20,389 nt of DNA, from IMG/VR virus record IMGVR_UViG_3300017598_000090, positions 1 through 20,389 of that record. One strand, 5' to 3'. Below the pieces are notes generated by a model. The model did not search any database. It was not told the origin of the DNA and worked only from the letters and a program-made list of their open reading frames with translations. The DNA is from a virus. A program made the position numbers and the translations under genes. This document shows, piece by piece, positions 3,935 to 14,453 of the stretch. How positions within the stretch are numbered: the first letter of the stretch is position 1; the number at the start of each line of letters is the position of its first letter.

Positions 3935-5866
3935 CTATTTAATTGGACAGATACCAGACTCGCATCCGATTTGATCTGCTGAAATATCATCTTCGTCAAA
4001 AGTAACCGAAGTAATTGGTTTAGTGTTAGCGATACGAGTTAGGTAACCAATATCGTTAATAGCTTCCATTGGTGCTTGGTCGAAACCATGATCCTTATGG
4101 AGTAAGAAACTTACTGACTTAACACATTCAGTATAGTTCTCAGCTAACCACTCTTTTATGTCTTCCAGTTCTTCGACTCTGTAGTACACTGTAACTGAGA
4201 CAGCATTATCAGACCATTCAGTCTGTAGTCGTTTGACTGTATTCAACTGATCAACAGCTGTGACATCTTTTGCGAATGTTGCATGTTCTGGAGTCTTGCA
4301 TGGGAACTCTACAACCACTGTTTTGTGATCTTCTGTTCCATCGAAGTTTCTTAAGTACTCAATTGGATAACCAGATGCTCTACAAACTTCTGTAAGAGGA
4401 CTATCAGATGCAATCCGCATACGACGAATAAAATATGGACTAAACGCAGGGTGTCCACCAGATGTTACTCCAGCTAACAGGCTAAGTGTGCCGCTTGGTT
4501 TGACTGTTGTAAGCTTAATGCTTATCGGCCAACCATGCTCCGCGCTATATTCAACATCATATTCACGTAATCTCTTGTATATCTCTGGTAACCAGCTACG
4601 TTGTTCTTCAGTAGCCATTGCATAACCAGTTATCCCAATCCCCATACGCATGTTCTTGTGAACAATCTCTTCTGTGTCTGCATTGTGACAATGTAATGCC
4701 AAACTATGCTTACAGATGCGATATAGGTTTTTCGTTACTAACCACATCTCTTCAAGAGAGGTCATGTTAGGTAAAAATTCTTCTGCCAAGCAGCAAGTCT
4801 CTTTACTAACTAATGGTTGTTCTGCACAAGGATTGAATCCTTCAACGTCAGGGTCAGGGTACTGAAATTCACCAACACGACCCTGCTTACGTGATGCTTC
4901 AAGGTTGATAAGTCCGTATGGCTCACCGTTACCTTTATAGCCTTCCCAAAACTCTTCAGGAAGCTTTGATACGTCATCACATACCACTGAGTTGTTACTG
5001 TTAGACCTCCAGTTAGGTATTCCACCTAAGTCCCAGCGTTTAGCACGTAAGTAATCGATATCATCATAGTCACCTAAAGCGATCATAGCTGAACGTCTTA
5101 CATTACCAGCAACGACAATCATACCAATAATGTTCATAATATCTAAACAGTCAATCGGCTGTAGTCGCTTACCACGCTTCTTGTCTAACACCCCAATTAT
5201 GAGGTCTATACCTTCAACCAGTATCTCACCACCAGAAGCCGTACCACCGAATGATTTAATCGGAGCACCAGCACCACGTATAAGCTGTGTTGAATATGTG
5301 AAGCCTTCTCCAGAGTAAAAGTAACTCTTTAAGACTTTACCTAACAGTTTAGTCCAACCTTCACGTGTATCTGGTACAATGAAGTCTGCACTAGCATCAT
5401 CCTGACGGACAATCTTAATTTTCTTTCTTTGGAGCTTAGGTAGCTGATGAACATACTCACGTTGTATGTTAAAGCCAACTCCACAACCTAACATAAGCAT
5501 ATCCATAGCCCATGTAAAAGGTCTGATAGGTTCATCTACAGTTGTGAAAGCACAATTCTGTAATGATGGTAACCCAAGTTTGTTTACTGTCTTTGTTCCA
5601 AGTTGCCACCAGAATCTCCCAGCAACACTTCCTTTCAAGCCTAACAGTTGTCTTGCCAATTCTTGTTCTTCATCTTCAGTGAATCCGACCTTAAGTTGAG
5701 TTCTGGATGCTTTTATCACTCTCGACACTACATCTGGAAATTCTTCAGTCTCAGAATTTGGGTTGTTTTCATCTGTTTTTCTGCAGTAAGTTCGCTTCAG
5801 AGTAATATAGCCTATCTCACCCCAAGGTGTTTTAACATCAGGTAAATCTGCTGCGGTATTAATCAA
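3935..5866 (-). CDS. nrdJ: Adenosylcobalamin-dependent (class II) ribonucleotide reductase, monomeric type
   Basis: This 643-residue enzyme reduces ribonucleotides to deoxyribonucleotides for phage DNA synthesis. The radical is generated from adenosylcobalamin, so no NrdB subunit or oxygen is needed. Catalytic residues match the Lactobacillus leichmannii enzyme. NCAF has Cys105, the first redox cysteine. FNPCAE has Asn345, radical Cys347 and Glu349. A second redox cysteine, Cys358, lies exactly 11 residues on. The C-terminal shuttle pair is Cys635 and Cys640 (CESGICPIK). GCGVGFN (127-133) and the NVRRSA segment also fit. The start is a TTG (5866-5864) inside the end of the upstream gene, with AAGGA upstream. 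It needs host-made or scavenged B12 and is shorter than the about 740-residue Lactobacillus protein. No separate NrdA or NrdB gene is visible. Confidence 0.94.
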   Translation of the reverse strand: MINTAADLPDVKTPWGEIGYITLKRTYCRKTDENNPNSETEEFPDVVSRVIKASRTQLKVGFTEDEEQELARQLLGLKGSVAGRFWWQLGTKTVNKLGLPSLQNCAFTTVDEPIRPFTWAMDMLMLGCGVGFNIQREYVHQLPKLQRKKIKIVRQDDASADFIVPDTREGWTKLLGKVLKSYFYSGEGFTYSTQLIRGAGAPIKSFGGTASGGEILVEGIDLIIGVLDKKRGKRLQPIDCLDIMNIIGMIVVAGNVRRSAMIALGDYDDIDYLRAKRWDLGGIPNWRSNSNNSVVCDDVSKLPEEFWEGYKGNGEPYGLINLEASRKQGRVGEFQYPDPDVEGFNPCAEQPLVSKETCCLAEEFLPNMTSLEEMWLVTKNLYRICKHSLALHCHNADTEEIVHKNMRMGIGITGYAMATEEQRSWLPEIYKRLREYDVEYSAEHGWPISIKLTTVKPSGTLSLLAGVTSGGHPAFSPYFIRRMRIASDSPLTEVCRASGYPIEYLRNFDGTEDHKTVVVEFPCKTPEHATFAKDVTAVDQLNTVKRLQTEWSDNAVSVTVYYRVEELEDIKEWLAENYTECVKSVSFLLHKDHGFDQAPMEAINDIGYLTRIANTKPITSVTFDEDDISADQIGCESGICPIK

Positions 5867-6324: not shown

Positions 6325-6606
6325 TTATTTTCCAGCCAATAACTCATTTTCTTCAAAACAAGAATCGAACCAGTTCTTCTCTGCCGCATACTTCTGAGGG
6401 TTGTTCTCTTGCATGTCACGCAGCTTAGCATACTTGGCTAGGAGTGCTTTAGGCATACCAGTTTCTTCTAAGATACGGTCTTTAATATCCGCAATGTATG
6501 ATGCGCTATCACGCTTAGCAACTTCTGCTTTTACAATCTCGTCGATTGCATCATTGATCTGCTTACGCTTCTCTGGACTCTCACCATTAATATCAAAATC
6601 ACTCAT
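6325..6606 (-). CDS. Small helical protein, tentatively DsbA-like
   Basis: The 93-residue protein is helical and highly charged. The central segment (YIADIKDRILEETGMP, then LLAKYAKLRD) resembles in layout T4 DsbA, the small dsDNA-binding protein that promotes late transcription. DsbA proteins share a pattern of K-DI-x-R..E-LG followed by LL..Y. This is from memory of the family, without an alignment. It overlaps the upstream gene as TAATG (6608-6604), so the two are translationally coupled. If correct, it would be a candidate regulator for the phage promoters described here. Confidence 0.5.
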   Translation of the reverse strand: MSDFDINGESPEKRKQINDAIDEIVKAEVAKRDSASYIADIKDRILEETGMPKALLAKYAKLRDMQENNPQKYAAEKNWFDSCFEENELLAGK

Positions 6607-7586: not shown

Positions 7587-7661
7587 TGGTACTCGGAGCA
7601 TGATTCGAACATTCGACCTTCCGCTTATCAAGCAGATGCACTACCGCTTTGCTATCCGAGC
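7587..7661 (-). tRNA. tRNA-Ile (anticodon GAT)
   Basis: Read leftward, GCTCGGA pairs with TCCGAGT as the acceptor stem (one G-T pair). The D arm is GCA...TGC with GG in the loop. The anticodon arm is TCTGC-TTGATAA-GCGGA with GAT at positions 34-36. The T arm is GAATG-TTCGAAT-CATGC with one mismatch. The 3' end is encoded as ACCA. All arms are present, so it is probably functional. Confidence 0.88.
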
Positions 7662-7859: not shown

Positions 7860-7936
7860 TGGTGCTCAGTGGTAGAATCAAACTACCTCAGTCCTCTGTG
7901 TAAGAGAGGCGCAATCCCACTCTGCTTCAACCGAGC
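7860..7936 (-). tRNA. tRNA-Val (anticodon TAC)
   Basis: The acceptor stem is GCTCGGT/ACTGAGC with one G-T pair. The anticodon arm is CCTCT-CTTACAC-AGAGG with TAC at 34-36. The T arm is GGTAG-TTTGATT-CTACC, fully paired. The 3' end ACCA is encoded. The D arm is slightly irregular (GCA...TGC, one extra base before it). The next 83 bases up to the coiled-coil gene hold only a small hairpin (CCTAC/GTAGG, 7 nt loop). Confidence 0.85.
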
Positions 7937-8871: not shown

Positions 8872-8954
8872 TGGTCGGGGCGGAAGGATTCGAACCTTCG
8901 AACTCTGTTTACCGACGTGAAAGGCCGATGTATTAACCCAGATACGAGTGGGAG
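8872..8954 (-). tRNA. Chimeric tRNA-Glu-like gene (anticodon TTC), probably defective
   Basis: The 5' part is clearly Glu-like: a D arm GTAT-CTGGGTTA-ATAC and an anticodon arm TCGGC-CTTTCAC-GTCGG. The 3' part has its own good T arm (GAAGG-TTCGAAT-CCTTC), acceptor strand CGCCCCG, discriminator A and encoded CCA. The 5' acceptor strand (CTCCCAC) does not pair with CGCCCCG, and twelve bases instead of about five separate the anticodon and T stems. TTCGAA occurs twice, nine bases apart, in the overlap. It looks like two tRNA genes joined at their conserved T-loop sequence. A promoter-like element starts 41 bases upstream. Confidence 0.6.
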
Positions 8955-10702: not shown

Positions 10703-10787
10703 TAATATTTCTCTGTGTTGTTATCATAAGATCATTATTGTCCGATTCTTGAACAGTGTCAAGCTTTTGATTAAATACTACATTCAT
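10695..10787 (-). CDS. Possible 30-aa protein spanning the promoter
   Basis: An ATG at 10787-10785 lies nine bases after GAGGTGG and opens a 30-codon frame that ends at 10695, overlapping the next gene start by a few bases. Its middle (QESDNNDLM) matches the small frame at 8720-8839, because both read through the same promoter sequence. It also overlaps the end of the 75-aa gene upstream. Translation is plausible but unproven. Confidence 0.35.
   Translation of the reverse strand: MNVVFNQKLDTVQESDNNDLMITTQRNIND
10721..10762 (-). promoter_or_regulatory. Shared phage promoter element, copy 2
   Basis: Read leftward: TTGACA (10762-10757), 17-base spacer ending ATCGGAC, AATAAT (10739-10734), then GATCTTATGA. 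It stands at the head of the 135-aa protein and exonuclease genes. It is very close to the + strand copy at 20336-20376, which shares ATCGGAC and ATAATGATCTTAT. Confidence 0.7.
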
Positions 10788-10998
10788 TTTCATGTTCCAC
10801 CTCTATTCCACATTGGTTATACACGTCAGCATCCCCACCAGATGATGTCTGATAGTTTGAACTGAACCTCCACAGCCGATACTCCTCCACAGTCTTACAG
10901 TGCTCTGCACGATAGTCCTTTGGAATACAGCCCAACTGTTCACTGGCAGCAAGACCCTTTGTACGGTCTGTACCATGAACCCCTTCGATCAACTCCAT
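10771..10998 (-). CDS. Hypothetical small protein, 75 aa
   Basis: The frame is open to 11037, but the likely start is the ATG at 10998. AAGGAG lies just upstream, and the promoter at 11028-11056 would begin transcription near 11021, after the earlier ATG. The product is soluble with three Cys and several Glu/His residues, ending QCGIEVEHENECSI. I recognise no family. It is the first gene of the leftward arm next to the origin-like region, a place where phages often put early host-takeover genes. Confidence 0.6.
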   Translation of the reverse strand: MELIEGVHGTDRTKGLAASEQLGCIPKDYRAEHCKTVEEYRLWRFSSNYQTSSGGDADVYNQCGIEVEHENECSI

Positions 10999-11027: not shown

Positions 11028-11056
11028 AGTATTGCACACCAAATAGTTGATGTCAA
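11028..11056 (-). promoter_or_regulatory. Sigma70-like promoter at the head of the leftward arm
   Basis: TTGACA (11056-11051), 17-base spacer, AATACT (11033-11028). It lacks the GATCTTATRA extension of the shared elements, so it may be a plain host-type early promoter. Confidence 0.6.
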
Positions 11057-11244
11057 ACCTAACGATAAAATAAACTAAAAGAATGTTTTCTTATCACTCC
11101 TTGACATAAGTAGCAAGTTCGTTTAATATTGATCGTATATGGGTAGTGGCAAGCATTACTTAATTCAACTTCTCCGAGCAGTTGACCATTAGCAAGACGC
11201 TTAAGAGAGACATGTCGAAGGTTAATTATAACGCCAATCACTCA

Positions 11245-11480
11245 CCGACTTAAGTGTAAGCCCAAGAAGAATACCGATGGGGCAACTGAATTCTAAAGAC
11301 CAAACAGCGGTTGGACTCGTCAAAGCGAGGAAGGTGGTCGAGCTAATACAACTTTGATAGTTATTAGCTACCGATGGTTCGTACCGATGGCTCCAAGCTG
11401 GTAAGCGTACTAAGGTAAAAGGTCTTATTAACTCCTTAATTGGGGTTGGGATTCTTTTACCTTAAATTCCCCCAATTCAC
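11245..11480. other. Structured non-coding region with a triplicated 9-mer
   Basis: No gene is seen from about 11057 to 11894. Here TACCGATGG occurs at 11272, 11369 and 11382. Several hairpins follow one another: CCAA/TTGG (11300-11314), CTCG/CGAG (11316-11329), both inside GACCA/TGGTC (11298-11302 and 11335-11339), then AGCTAAT plus AACT pairing with AGTT plus ATTAGCT (11341-11369). AAGGTAAAAG (11412-11421) pairs perfectly with CTTTTACCTT (11454-11463) around an inner helix (11430-11435 with 11442-11447). AATTGGGG (11438-11445) can instead pair with CCCCAATT (11470-11477), which excludes that inner helix. It could be a structured RNA or part of an origin; the strand is unknown. Confidence 0.5.
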
Positions 11481-11499
11481 CCTCTGGTAATATAAAAAC

Positions 11500-11760
11500 C
11501 CAATACAATCATACAGATATATATTCATACAGATTGCGAAGCAATACTGGTGTCTGTGTGATATGTGTAAAAGTCTTATTAAGGACTGATTGGGTTTAGA
11601 CTGATCTATGCGACTTATGCACATATCCACAGATTATATTTTGTGTGTTATGTGGGTAAGTGCAGCATGCTCTCTCAGGTTAGTAACTATCTATCGCACT
11701 TATCCATCATATCCACAACTCCTACTCTCCTATTAAATAATTTCATTTATTTTGCCTTAC
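11500..11760. other. Candidate replication origin: DnaA-box-like cluster, direct repeats and AT-rich DNA
   Basis: TTATGCACA (11615-11623) fits the DnaA box TTATNCACA. ATATCCACA (11623-11631 and 11709-11717), TTATCCATC (11700-11708) and TGTGGGTAA on the other strand (11651-11659) are one or two changes from it. Just before them are TCATACAGAT repeated at 11509 and 11525, and the inverted repeat ATTGC-GAA-GCAAT (11533-11545), which contains GCGAAGC, a sequence known to form an unusually stable DNA mini-hairpin. An AT-rich stretch follows at 11730-11755. The region lies between divergent arms, a usual place for an origin. Confidence 0.55.
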
Positions 11761-11764
11761 CCTA

Positions 11765-11805
11765 TTGACAGACTACGAAAACTGGTCTATAGTTGATCTT
11801 ATAAG
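11765..11805 (+). promoter_or_regulatory. Shared phage promoter element, copy 3, head of the virion arm
   Basis: TTGACA (11765-11770), 17-base spacer, TATAGT (11788-11793), T, then GATCTTATAAG (11795-11805). It includes the palindrome CTTATAAG. It is the only obvious strong promoter before the + strand genes until 12122. Confidence 0.75.
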
Positions 11806-11840
11806 GGTTGAGGAATCCTTGTGTTAAGTGTATTTGTTTT

Positions 11841-11865
11841 GCCCAGTTCCGCACTGGGCTTTTTT
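11841..11865 (+). terminator. Intrinsic terminator in the leader of the virion operon
   Basis: GCCCAGT (11841-11847) pairs perfectly with ACTGGGC (11853-11859) around a five-base loop, followed by six T. It lies about 40 bases after the expected start of the 11765 promoter and before the first + strand gene. Most transcripts would therefore end as a leader RNA of about 65 nt unless terminator readthrough is arranged. Confidence 0.9.
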
Positions 11866-11894
11866 ATGTCCAACAACTAACAGGAAAACTCAGC

Positions 11895-12101
11895 ATGAGT
11901 AGATGCAGAGCCTGCAACATAGAACTCTCAGAAGGTGATCTTTTGCGTAAAGCTAAAGATTGGGATTATTGCTCAGAATGTCGCAACCAATCAACTAAAA
12001 AATATCATGCCAGTGATAAAGAGTATGATCACCAGACACTAACTAATATCCAATTCGATGGTAGTCCATTGTCAGTAGAGCTGGGACATACAGCTGATTA
12101 A
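11895..12101 (+). CDS. Small zinc-finger protein, 68 aa
   Basis: The ATG at 11895 has AGGA nine bases upstream; a longer frame back to 11808 would run through the terminator and is not used. The protein starts MSRCRACNIELSEGDLLRK and carries two CxxC knuckles (Cys4/Cys7 and Cys26/Cys29). Short proteins of this type are common in tailed phages and are probably zinc-binding. Being first in the virion operon, just past a terminator, it could be a regulator, but that is inference. Confidence 0.75.
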   Translation: MSRCRACNIELSEGDLLRKAKDWDYCSECRNQSTKKYHASDKEYDHQTLTNIQFDGSPLSVELGHTAD

Positions 12102-12121: not shown

Positions 12122-12157
12122 TTGACAAAATATGAAGAATGCCTTAAACTGTTAGTA
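12122..12157 (+). promoter_or_regulatory. Second shared promoter element before the small terminase gene
   Basis: TTGACA (12122-12127), 17-base spacer, TAAACT (12145-12150), GTTAGTA. The 14-base string TTAAACTGTTAGTA (12144-12157) recurs on the other strand at 8964-8977, also downstream of TTGACA. The -10 match to the sigma70 consensus is only moderate. Confidence 0.55.
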
Positions 12158-12190: not shown

Positions 12191-12538
12191 ATGGCAGGTA
12201 TTTCAAGAGATGCACGTAAAGTTAATCGCGCACAGTCTGCTTATGATAACGGTATTGATAAGTTTCTTGATATCATCGAAGGTCTCAATGATGAGATTCC
12301 AGAAATCTACGATATCATGATAGGTTACTCGAAGGGCAGAAGTGAACCTAAGTACGATATAACATCACAACAATACAGCGCACTTAAAGATCAATTCAAC
12401 TTGTGGAAGAGTAATCTTCGTGAGCCAGATAAAGTGTTAGCACATATTAATGAAGAATTGCGAAAGAAGCACAACTCAAGTAGTGTGGATAGCGCAGGCT
12501 CTAATAAACCCAAATTAGCAGTGTTCAAATCTCAATAG
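12191..12538 (+). CDS. Probable small terminase subunit
   Basis: The 115-residue, mostly helical protein precedes the large terminase, which is the standard place for the small subunit that recognises phage DNA and loads the packaging motor. It has an N-terminal basic segment (RDARKVNRAQSAYD), a central helical region, a segment FNLWKSNLREPDKVL, and a flexible basic tail. No clear helix-turn-helix can be named by eye. The assignment rests on size, composition and position. Unusually, about 370 bases separate its stop from the large subunit start. Confidence 0.65.
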   Translation: MAGISRDARKVNRAQSAYDNGIDKFLDIIEGLNDEIPEIYDIMIGYSKGRSEPKYDITSQQYSALKDQFNLWKSNLREPDKVLAHINEELRKKHNSSSVDSAGSNKPKLAVFKSQ

Positions 12539-12780
12539 ATTCGAATAACTAAAACAGTTCCACTGCCAAGGGGTGCAATACTCCTGACGATTGCTAGAGC
12601 ATTCGGTTAAGGGACTCTCACCTTTCAGGTGATTGTAAGCAAATATATCGGTACGCCCTCCAGCTGATATGTTTCCCTTTTTAATTCTGGAGAGAATTTG
12701 ATGAACCATAATTCCTAACATAAAGTTGATTTGAATATCGGCTGGTTAGGTTGGGCATCTCCTTATATGGGAGAAGTCAG

Positions 12781-12881
12781 ATGTATTTTATGTACAAGAT
12801 AGTTAACACAGTTAATGAAAAGTGTTATATAGGTATTACCTGTCTAGAGAAATAGTGAGACGAGGTTATAAACTAAAATAG
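12781..12881 (+). pseudogene. Truncated GIY-YIG homing endonuclease
   Basis: The ATG at 12781 opens 24 codons reading MYFMYKIVNTVNEKCYIGIT, then CLEK and a stop. The segment YKIVNT...KCYIGIT is the hallmark N-terminal strand pair of GIY-YIG nucleases (usual form (G/Y)(I/K)Y...YIGxT). The catalytic Arg, Glu and DNA-binding domain are absent. A neighbouring frame continues SREIVRRGYKLK to a stop at 12881, which may be the remains of the C-terminus after internal loss and a frameshift. It is too short to be active. It is likely what is left of a free-standing or intron-borne homing gene between the terminase genes. Confidence 0.75.
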
Positions 12882-12893
12882 TACCCTATCTTC

Positions 12894-12908
12894 AGACTGG
12901 AGGGGTCT
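12894..12908 (+). promoter_or_regulatory. Hairpin holding the ribosome site of the large terminase
   Basis: AGACT (12894-12898) pairs with GGTCT (12904-12908). The loop is GGAGG, the SD itself, and the ATG follows directly. The stem is short, so it may tune rather than block translation. Confidence 0.55.
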
Positions 12909-14453
12909 ATGTCAGAACAGATAATTATTGAACCACAAGCAGGAAAGCAAAAACAAGCTTGCAACATAGCTGTAGATTTTTTGATCTACGGTGGGGCGAG
13001 GGGAGCAGGTAAAAGTTACTTACTAAACATGTTGCCACTTAAGCACATTGAAGACCCGAAGTTTCGTGGTATCTTCTTTCGTAGACAACATGACGAGATC
13101 ATGGGTGCTGGTGGCTTATGGGATACAGCGACATCAATGTATCCCCAGTTTGGAGCACATCCAAATCTATCAAATTTAAGATGGAAGTTTCCTTCTAAAG
13201 CAGTTCTTCAAATGAAGCACATGTATACGGAAGCTGACAAAGAAAGACATCGTGGACTACAGTATTCATTTGTAGGTTTCGATGAGATCGATCACTTCAG
13301 TAAAGAACAGGTTATATTCTTACAAACTTGTCTACGTTCTGAAGCACAAAACGATTCGTATATGGTTGGTACTTGTAACCCGAATCCTGACTCATGGGTG
13401 TTAGACCTTGTAGAGTGGTATCTGGATGATGATGGGATACCAAACCCAGAAAGAAGCGGAACAATAAGACATTACCTAACAGTTGGTGGTGACTTTGTTT
13501 TTGCAGATACATCAGAAGAATTAGTTGAGAAGTACCCAGAGCTAGTTTATATAGAAAACACTAAAACTGGTAAGGTTGATTTTGTTCGACCTAAGACATT
13601 TGCATTCATAGCTGCTAATATTGATGATAACCCAGCACTTGTTAAGGCTAACCCTGTATATAAGTCTGAACTATTATCTCTCCCAGAGCATGAGAAGCTT
13701 AGACAATATTACGGTTCGTGGTATGCAAGGCCTACTGGTGCTAACTACTTCCAACGAGATTGGTTAGTAGAAGTTGATACATATCCTAACAAGGCTAAAT
13801 GTTGCCGAGCATGGGACAAGGCTGCAACCCAGCCAAGCGAACTTAACAAGAATCCAGATTACACAGCTTGTAGTCCAAGGATTTATATGTTCGAAGGTCT
13901 TTACTATCTTGTATTCGATGTACATGATTCAATCAAAGACCCAAAAGATAACGATAAAGATATTTCTGGACGTTTCAGACTCCGTTCAGGTGAAAGAGAC
14001 CTCTTAATAAAGAGACAGGCTCAACATGATGGCACAGATTGCCACGTAGTCTTTGCTGTCGACCCGTCAGCATCAGGAAAAACAGAATTTGAAAGCTCGT
14101 CTCAGAAGCTAACCTGTGAGGGAATGGTGGTCAAGAAAGACCCTATGCCTAACAACAAGAGTAAGTTAGTGAGATTTGAACCATTCGCATCTGCTTGTCA
14201 GAATGGATTGGTTAGAGTTGTTCGTAGTTCATTCCCAAACAAAGCCACGTATGACGCATTCATGAAAGAATTGGAAGCGTTTGACGGTCAACCATCTACA
14301 GTATCGAGAAAGGACGATTGGCCTGATGCAACTGCGTCAGCATTCAATTATATCTCTCGTATGAAGACTATTAAGGATTTCACAATCCCTACTGGTACTC
14401 CTACTGGCAAAGGTGGCTCATTATTATCATCCTTTAAGAAGACTTTATTCTAA
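12909..14453 (+). CDS. terL: Terminase large subunit
   Basis: This is the ATP-driven DNA packaging motor and headful or cos nuclease, 514 residues. The ATPase has Walker A GGARGAGKS at 28-36, Walker B FVGFDE at 121-126 and a coupling motif GTCNPNP at 154-160. The RNase H-like nuclease half follows, with acidic residues Asp303 (RAWDKAA), Asp385 (VFAVDPS) and the late pair in DDWPDA (469-473). Length and motif order are normal for the family. The start is fixed by GGAGG in a small hairpin just upstream. The portal gene begins at the last base of this gene. Confidence 0.95.
   Translation: MSEQIIIEPQAGKQKQACNIAVDFLIYGGARGAGKSYLLNMLPLKHIEDPKFRGIFFRRQHDEIMGAGGLWDTATSMYPQFGAHPNLSNLRWKFPSKAVLQMKHMYTEADKERHRGLQYSFVGFDEIDHFSKEQVIFLQTCLRSEAQNDSYMVGTCNPNPDSWVLDLVEWYLDDDGIPNPERSGTIRHYLTVGGDFVFADTSEELVEKYPELVYIENTKTGKVDFVRPKTFAFIAANIDDNPALVKANPVYKSELLSLPEHEKLRQYYGSWYARPTGANYFQRDWLVEVDTYPNKAKCCRAWDKAATQPSELNKNPDYTACSPRIYMFEGLYYLVFDVHDSIKDPKDNDKDISGRFRLRSGERDLLIKRQAQHDGTDCHVVFAVDPSASGKTEFESSSQKLTCEGMVVKKDPMPNNKSKLVRFEPFASACQNGLVRVVRSSFPNKATYDAFMKELEAFDGQPSTVSRKDDWPDATASAFNYISRMKTIKDFTIPTGTPTGKGGSLLSSFKKTLF

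Follow-up and report, generated by a model that had tools for sequence, protein, structure and literature searches.

Introduction

A strong promoter followed by an intrinsic terminator ahead of the packaging genes was found in a 20,389-base virus record (IMG/VR IMGVR_UViG_3300017598_000090), an incomplete genome that was analysed at its full length and is hereafter called the window. The source phage is freshwater-type. On the basis of the terminase, its closest named relatives are Vequintavirinae and marine and Aeromonas myoviruses (46%); on the basis of the capsid protein, they are Limnohabitans phage DC31, Curvibacter phage P26059A, and KPP10-like Pseudomonas phages (35-40%).

Similar arrangements are known. 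In the lambda pR'-tR'/Q system, as in the window, a strong promoter and then an intrinsic terminator lie ahead of the late genes, and the leader RNA is 194 nt. In phage 21, the terminator of the late promoter is close to the start; hence, a short spacing would not be unusual. Attenuators of the pyrBI type also have a terminator between the promoter and the first gene, and the window resembles them in this placement. Short promoter-terminator RNAs comparable to that of the window are produced by other phages as well, such as lambda OOP (77 nt) and P22 sar (68/69 nt) (PMC12197685). The initial annotation of the window proposed a late switch of the lambda pR'-tR' type, with a leader RNA of about 65 nt as the alternative.

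Materials and methods

Promoters were scored against the sigma70 consensus, on the assumption that it applies to the host. For the shuffle test, 300 dinucleotide shuffles of the window were scanned for terminators with a perfect stem of at least 7 bp, 5 G-C pairs, and a T6 run. The 29-sequence alignment of the non-coding RNA (ncRNA) family described below was fitted to the model and leans toward it; therefore, the closing helix was also read from the raw sequences.

Results

The unit lies in a non-coding gap between divergent gene blocks

The leftward genes of the window encode a thymidylate-synthase-like protein, exonuclease, MazG, ribonucleotide reductase, and endolysin, among others. The rightward genes are the zinc-ribbon gene, a small-terminase-position ORF, and the genes for the terminase large subunit (TerL), portal, protease-like protein, and major capsid protein. 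The two divergent blocks are separated by an 850-base gap, which holds the promoter (P1) and the terminator. The codon scores were negative for all ORFs tested within 11040-11894 but not for the flanking genes; hence, the gap is non-coding. On its left, it is bordered by the following gene, which has a codon score of +0.27 bits/codon and a promoter-like site just upstream (11056-11028, - strand).

10771..10998, - strand: opening gene of the leftward operon (75 aa), with AAGGAG ahead of ATG 10998, the reassigned start

P1 and the terminator

11765..11793, + strand: promoter P1, TTGACA-17-TATAGT, 11/12 consensus match
11841..11865, + strand: intrinsic terminator, 7-bp stem 11841-11859, T6 11860-11865; proposed attenuator

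Both elements reported by the initial annotation, the promoter at 11765 and the perfect seven-base terminator with six T, were recovered. The terminator reads GCCCAGTTCCGCACTGGGC+TTTTTT. Its stem consists of seven Watson-Crick pairs, five of them G-C, with a 5-nt loop, and the hairpin has a folding energy of -10.8 kcal/mol (-12.0 including the U run). None of the 300 shuffles yielded such a terminator or a promoter-terminator pair. Promoters with a match of at least 11/12 numbered eight in the window, compared with a mean of 0.69 per shuffle; therefore, host-type promoters appear to be widely used in this phage. Between the terminator and the zinc-ribbon gene, no promoter of at least 9/12 was found in the scan of the window.

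We consider it extremely improbable that the promoter or the terminator is a chance occurrence without function. Consensus scans do over-predict, and approximately 1.45 Mb of mostly phage DNA contained two other strict promoter-then-terminator pairs, about as many as the approximately 1.7 expected from independent densities. Because the count is close to the product of the densities, the pairing with P1 is by itself moderately improbable, which is suggestive but not decisive; the terminator itself is clearly non-random. The shuffle result, a hairpin at the predicted +1, and a leader 11-mer shared with a relative argue against chance, and the pairing is strengthened by that hairpin, of 10 bp, and by the fold of the whole RNA (z -3.7). 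The same promoter-terminator-gene order was seen in Pseudomonas phage KIL1 (L076, 8509-8595), where a perfect TTGACA/TATAAT promoter is followed by 28 nt, a terminator, and then the thymidylate synthase gene.

The predicted 66-nt RNA

11800..11823, + strand: 10-bp 5' hairpin with a GAGG loop, located where the RNA is predicted to start (fold; z -3.41 for 11800-11840)
11824..11840, + strand: U-rich single-stranded linker of the 66-nt RNA (fold)

Transcription from P1 is predicted to start at about 11800 and to end at about 11865, giving an RNA of 66 nt. With two hairpins that are predicted to fold independently, the leader and the terminator, this RNA agrees well with the leader RNA of about 65 nt named as the alternative in the initial annotation. 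The 10-bp 5' hairpin had been missed there, as had a promoter at 12122 and an upstream promoter with an RNA starting from 11101. For 11800-11840, one of 500 shuffles was equally stable. As for a pause-inducing -10-like element just after +1, inspection showed TATAAG at 11800-11805, which lacks the final T. The non-coding sequence is flanked by a promoter and an intrinsic terminator, as is expected of a small or leader RNA.

Negative codon scores led to the rejection of two coding possibilities, namely a pyrBI-like leader peptide (GTG, 11821-11880) and a zinc-ribbon gene extended at its 5' end. The negative peptide score, together with the lack of any alternative fold removing the terminator within the 66 nt, distinguishes the window from the pyrBI-type attenuators. 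Since the hairpins fold independently and no such competing fold was found, the predicted structures make it unlikely that a metabolite or the ribosome drives a switch within the leader, and any regulation of the terminator would need a factor acting on RNA polymerase.

The 66-nt RNA may instead be the product of a stand-alone small RNA gene that acts on phage or host RNA, with read-through as noise. Its anatomy (5' hairpin, U-rich linker, terminator) is typical of small RNAs and its fold is significant. We nevertheless regard this explanation as unlikely. Predicted pairing of the RNA with the translation starts of the window was not better than that of shuffled sequences (16.5% as good), and when related loci and records were scanned with a covariance model of the RNA, only the leader hairpin of CHA_P1 stood out above chance. 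Whereas OOP and sar are antisense RNAs, no antisense gene or target for the 66-nt RNA was found in the window.

The zinc-ribbon gene, P2, and the packaging genes

11895..12101, + strand: zinc-ribbon gene of 68 aa with CxxC...CxxC, opening the operon; 37% identical over 49 aa to its counterpart after P1 in a related locus (L043)
12122..12150, + strand: promoter P2, TTGACA-17-TAAACT, 10/12, between the zinc-ribbon gene and the packaging genes
12191..12538, + strand: small-terminase-position ORF, 115 aa, assigned by position only
12909..14453, + strand: terminase large subunit (phrog_979, E 2.6e-174; Pfam Terminase_6N, E 1.5e-24)

The zinc-ribbon protein had only weak matches in the HMM libraries (E 0.013 or worse), and the small-terminase-position ORF had no family match. 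A TTGACA promoter of at least 10/12 was located between 14 nt before and 75 nt after the stop codon of the zinc-ribbon gene in 10 of 13 loci.

P2 bears directly on the lambda comparison. In a switch of the pR'-tR' type, a phage antiterminator would load near P1 and let the polymerase pass the terminator into the virion operon. The order of promoter, intrinsic terminator, and late genes is indeed present. However, P2 at 12122, with its conserved position, would provide a bypass, so that the late genes do not appear to depend on P1; no antiterminator gene was seen adjacent to the unit, and the proteins scanned from the window, an incomplete genome, matched no antiterminator family, Q included; and the terminator is absent from the relatives examined. 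The window thus differs from lambda in having its own virion-gene promoter, no detected Q gene, and a leader of 66 nt. The late switch is not supported and is, in our judgement, very unlikely. As the packaging genes have P2, the comparison would fail for the virion operon as a whole but could still hold for the zinc-ribbon gene taken by itself; a protein may modulate read-through into that gene.

The stretch 12540-12908, between the small-terminase-position ORF and TerL, is non-coding, and a GIY-YIG-like protein is represented in it by its first 24 codons (12781-12855). The stretch had no group I intron match in Rfam and, from its sequence, looks like a decayed homing element.

Operon heads in related phages

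The initial annotation had also named the short zinc-finger gene as a possible partner of the unit. This suggestion fits the comparison, since in relatives the equivalent promoter heads the zinc-ribbon gene. In L043 (terminase 51%), TTGACA-17-CATAAT is followed by AAGGGTTGAG, the zinc-ribbon gene, and a further promoter at the end of the gene. The 11-mer TAAGGGTTGAG after the -10 of P1 is common to the window (offset 8) and L043 (offset 5), while none of 879 other promoters shared more than 8 bases with the start region of the window. Another locus (L039) has a promoter, a 5' hairpin, and the zinc-ribbon gene. In L043, a group I intron (5268-5500, Rfam E 1.1e-24) also lies between two pieces of the TerL gene, and the ORF before it (4119-5300) contains intein-like sequence.

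Small CxxC...CxxC genes occupy the same place in Nankokuvirus, Pakpunavirus, Otagovirus, and Flaumdravirus, and in the last three genera the gene is followed by a promoter. The layout of the Pakpunavirus and Nankokuvirus type, that is, a divergent non-coding region, zinc-ribbon gene, promoter, small-terminase position, and TerL, is also that of the window.

The Nankokuvirus phages PAK_P3 and CHA_P1 (KC862299, KC862295) share with the window the divergent non-coding region, a putative promoter, a 5' hairpin, and the small CxxC...CxxC gene (MRCKGCN in these phages), which is followed by TTGACA-18-TATAGT (putative promoter_16) and an NPRGRP-type small-terminase-like gene. The 5' hairpin (TACAAGGGAGG...CCTCCCTTGTACTAAGTATAT) was found with the leader model of the window (E 0.095) and lies directly before the equivalent zinc-ribbon gene, amid annotated putative promoters. 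Both hairpins contain CCTTGTRYTAAGTRTA. Unlike the window, these phages have a longer hairpin and no terminator between the leader and the gene, and the ncRNA covariance model R3 found nothing in them. The CHA_P1 leader hairpin has a 28-nt core (GGGAGGGAGTGGGCAAGTGCCCCCTCCC) that recurs perfectly at a second genome site (L164, 44501-44528 and 21811-21838).

In the Pakpunavirus and Otagovirus phages (PAK_P4, C2-10_Ab1, phiPsa374), the divergent region, the ncRNA family, the zinc-ribbon gene, and a P2-like promoter are present as in the window, and the ORF after that promoter is 100-120 aa (115 aa in the window). Unlike in the window, their ncRNA stops approximately 70-100 nt short of the zinc-ribbon gene, and neither a second, P1-like promoter nor a leader hairpin or terminator was seen.

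Outside the window, a terminator ahead of the zinc-ribbon gene was present only in two near-identical contigs (L011 and L012), which show no variation across the P1-terminator region. None was found in any other relative examined. In a lambda control, the strict definition missed tR'; the absence is therefore no more reliable than that definition, although looser settings were also used. A terminator directly before TerL in Mydovirus, without a nearby promoter of at least 9/12, was rejected as not comparable, as was a weak terminator (L023) with a weak promoter before it and a different gene after it. Because only near-identical loci share the terminator, selection on it cannot be shown from the available loci.

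Related phages also provide evidence on the small RNA gene considered above. RNA-seq has detected small RNAs of PAK_P3 and PAK_P4 in the corresponding stretch, which runs from the divergent promoters to the virion genes, and two of those of PAK_P3, approximately 100 nt each, are abundant late in infection (PMC4933390). The PAK_P4 stretch carries an annotated putative promoter and no RNA annotation, although the phage has been studied by RNA-seq. The 66-nt RNA was rejected as an equivalent of PAK_P3 sRNA1 and sRNA2, which lie further downstream and differ in sequence, fold, and position. The PAK_P3 small RNAs show that the stretch before the virion genes serves RNA production in related phages, no more. 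Against the small RNA gene, relatives keep P1, the leader start, and the zinc-ribbon gene together without the terminator.

A conserved ncRNA family upstream of the zinc-ribbon gene

11101..11129, + strand: upstream promoter (TTGACA-17-TAATAT, 10/12), which precedes the conserved RNA
11192..11315, + strand: conserved ncRNA, 5' domain (covariance model, HMM, covariation)
11411..11464, + strand: probable 3' hairpin of the ncRNA, arms 11411-11421 / 11454-11464, 11-bp perfect inverted repeat
11495..11680, + strand: two strong hairpins, more stable on this strand (z values by sub-stretch)

Alignment of the stretch before the zinc-ribbon gene from six phages revealed a conserved RNA of roughly 250-330 nt. 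In the window, the family stretch is 11137-11470, with its core at 11192-11315 (+ strand); the hairpin at 11411..11464 was inferred to be its 3' domain, which is a probable assignment. Seven members, the window not among them, were used to build a profile; beyond these members, its top match was the window (11205-11296, E 0.011; next 3.2). A covariance model built from ten members, again without the window, found 11192-11315 (E 1.7e-6 to 2.8e-6, these E-values being rough). By blastn, the ncRNA was present in 182 phage records. The motif GAGAGAYATGTC...CTCACCGR occurred in 30 viral stretches, two of which are the near-identical contigs of the window, leaving approximately 28 others. In many members, a promoter-like site begins approximately 41-43 nt ahead of the motif; in the window, this distance is 104 nt. 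The exact motif also occurred in eight stretches of bacterial and archaeal genomes; one was convincing, in a contig of an Armatimonadetes metagenome-assembled genome (L220, 1755-1869), which may be a phage contig in the bin.

The closing helix around the motif (11197-11205 / 11249-11257 in the window) is fully different between members yet paired when read from the raw sequences, for example CTGATGG/CCATCAG, GCGTGGG/CCCACGC, and AGTGATTGG/CCAATCACT, with ACGCTTAAG/CTTAAGTGT in the window. In the 29-sequence alignment, 99.2% of cells pair, 14 of 18 pairs changed on both sides, and the covariation score was 0.666, compared with 0.145 for shuffled sequences. Rfam 15 gave no match at the gathering score for window 11040-11900 and none over the ncRNA in relatives; matches to RyhB, anti-hemB, and miRNA were below the gathering score, at chance level, and were rejected. 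No description of the family was found in the titles and abstracts retrieved by literature searches, or in full-text searches of a collection of non-subscription papers.

In three loci (L193, L210, and L215), an intrinsic terminator closes the family RNA after approximately 240-255 nt; hence, the sequences indicate that it can be free-standing. Two copies are found on each of two contigs (L209 and L211 on one, L204 and L205 on the other), and only one copy of each pair has the zinc-ribbon gene a few hundred bases downstream.

These observations would also fit a different role for the terminator, namely that it mainly ends an RNA of approximately 730 nt started at 11101, comprising the ncRNA and the hairpins, and insulates the operon, with its closeness to P1 being incidental. 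A promoter at 11101 and a confirmed ncRNA family member do lie upstream on the same strand, the stretch 11137-11866 is more structured on the + strand (z -4.1) than on the - strand (z -1.2), and, whereas the three family RNAs above have terminators of their own, no good terminator was found after the ncRNA of the window before 11841. However, the ncRNA is separated from the terminator by P1, which has a conserved start region, and no terminator intervenes where the ncRNA of Pakpunavirus and Otagovirus leads toward the zinc-ribbon gene. As the main function of the terminator, this role is rather improbable.

The hairpins at 11495..11680 are more stable on the + strand in both halves (11495-11604, z -5.35 vs -2.8; 11600-11679, z -3.95 vs -2.31). 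A covariance model of this stretch matched itself, weakly its own opposite strand, and nothing else. The stretch 11495-11720 combines the two very stable hairpins with DnaA-box-resembling sequences (TTATGCACA, ATATCCACA, TTATCCATCATATCCACA), and the GC skew turns there; judging from these features, a replication origin is possible. L043 has a repeated TTATCAACAACACGG upstream of its zinc-ribbon gene.

Proposed attenuated head promoter of the zinc-ribbon gene

The explanation that we prefer, with a probability of approximately 0.5, is that P1 is the head promoter of the zinc-ribbon gene, fitted with a lineage-specific attenuator. From the layout, the predicted structures, the conservation of P1, the leader start, the gene, and P2, and the absence of the terminator in relatives, we infer promoter use, termination efficiency, RNA accumulation, and the dependence of the gene on read-through as follows. 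P1 would be recognized by host sigma70 and would serve the zinc-ribbon gene at the start of the packaging/virion operon, and the transcript would carry a protective hairpin at its 5' end. In the lineage of the window, an intrinsic terminator would have been interposed between the leader and the gene, and most P1 transcripts would stop at approximately 11865, giving the 66-nt two-hairpin RNA. The zinc-ribbon protein would be made only from read-through, while the packaging and virion genes would be served by P2 without passing the terminator. The RNA started at 11101 lacks a convincing terminator itself, so the one at 11841-11865 probably stops this RNA as well and shields the operon. Against the attenuator, the sole purpose of the unit could be the 66-nt RNA itself.

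More tentatively, the virion-operon head of a large myovirus group may possibly be an RNA control region, in which the ncRNA family and the lineage-added P1, 5' hairpin, and attenuator tune the zinc-ribbon protein. If so, the ncRNA and the 66-nt leader would exert this control at the entry of late gene expression. The attenuated leader alone varies known themes only modestly. Of wider use is the comparison that it prompted, in which several phage genera, among them well-studied Pseudomonas phages, share a conserved head-of-virion-operon layout, and which reveals a strongly covarying RNA family without an Rfam entry.

Other features of the window

The protein encoded at 6325-6606 (- strand) matches phrog_639, a phage transcriptional regulator family (E 9.3e-7), and is presumably T4 DsbA-like. 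A good tRNA-Ile was detected at 7587-7661, together with two weak or degenerate tRNA matches at 7865-7934 and 8883-8945 (- strand).
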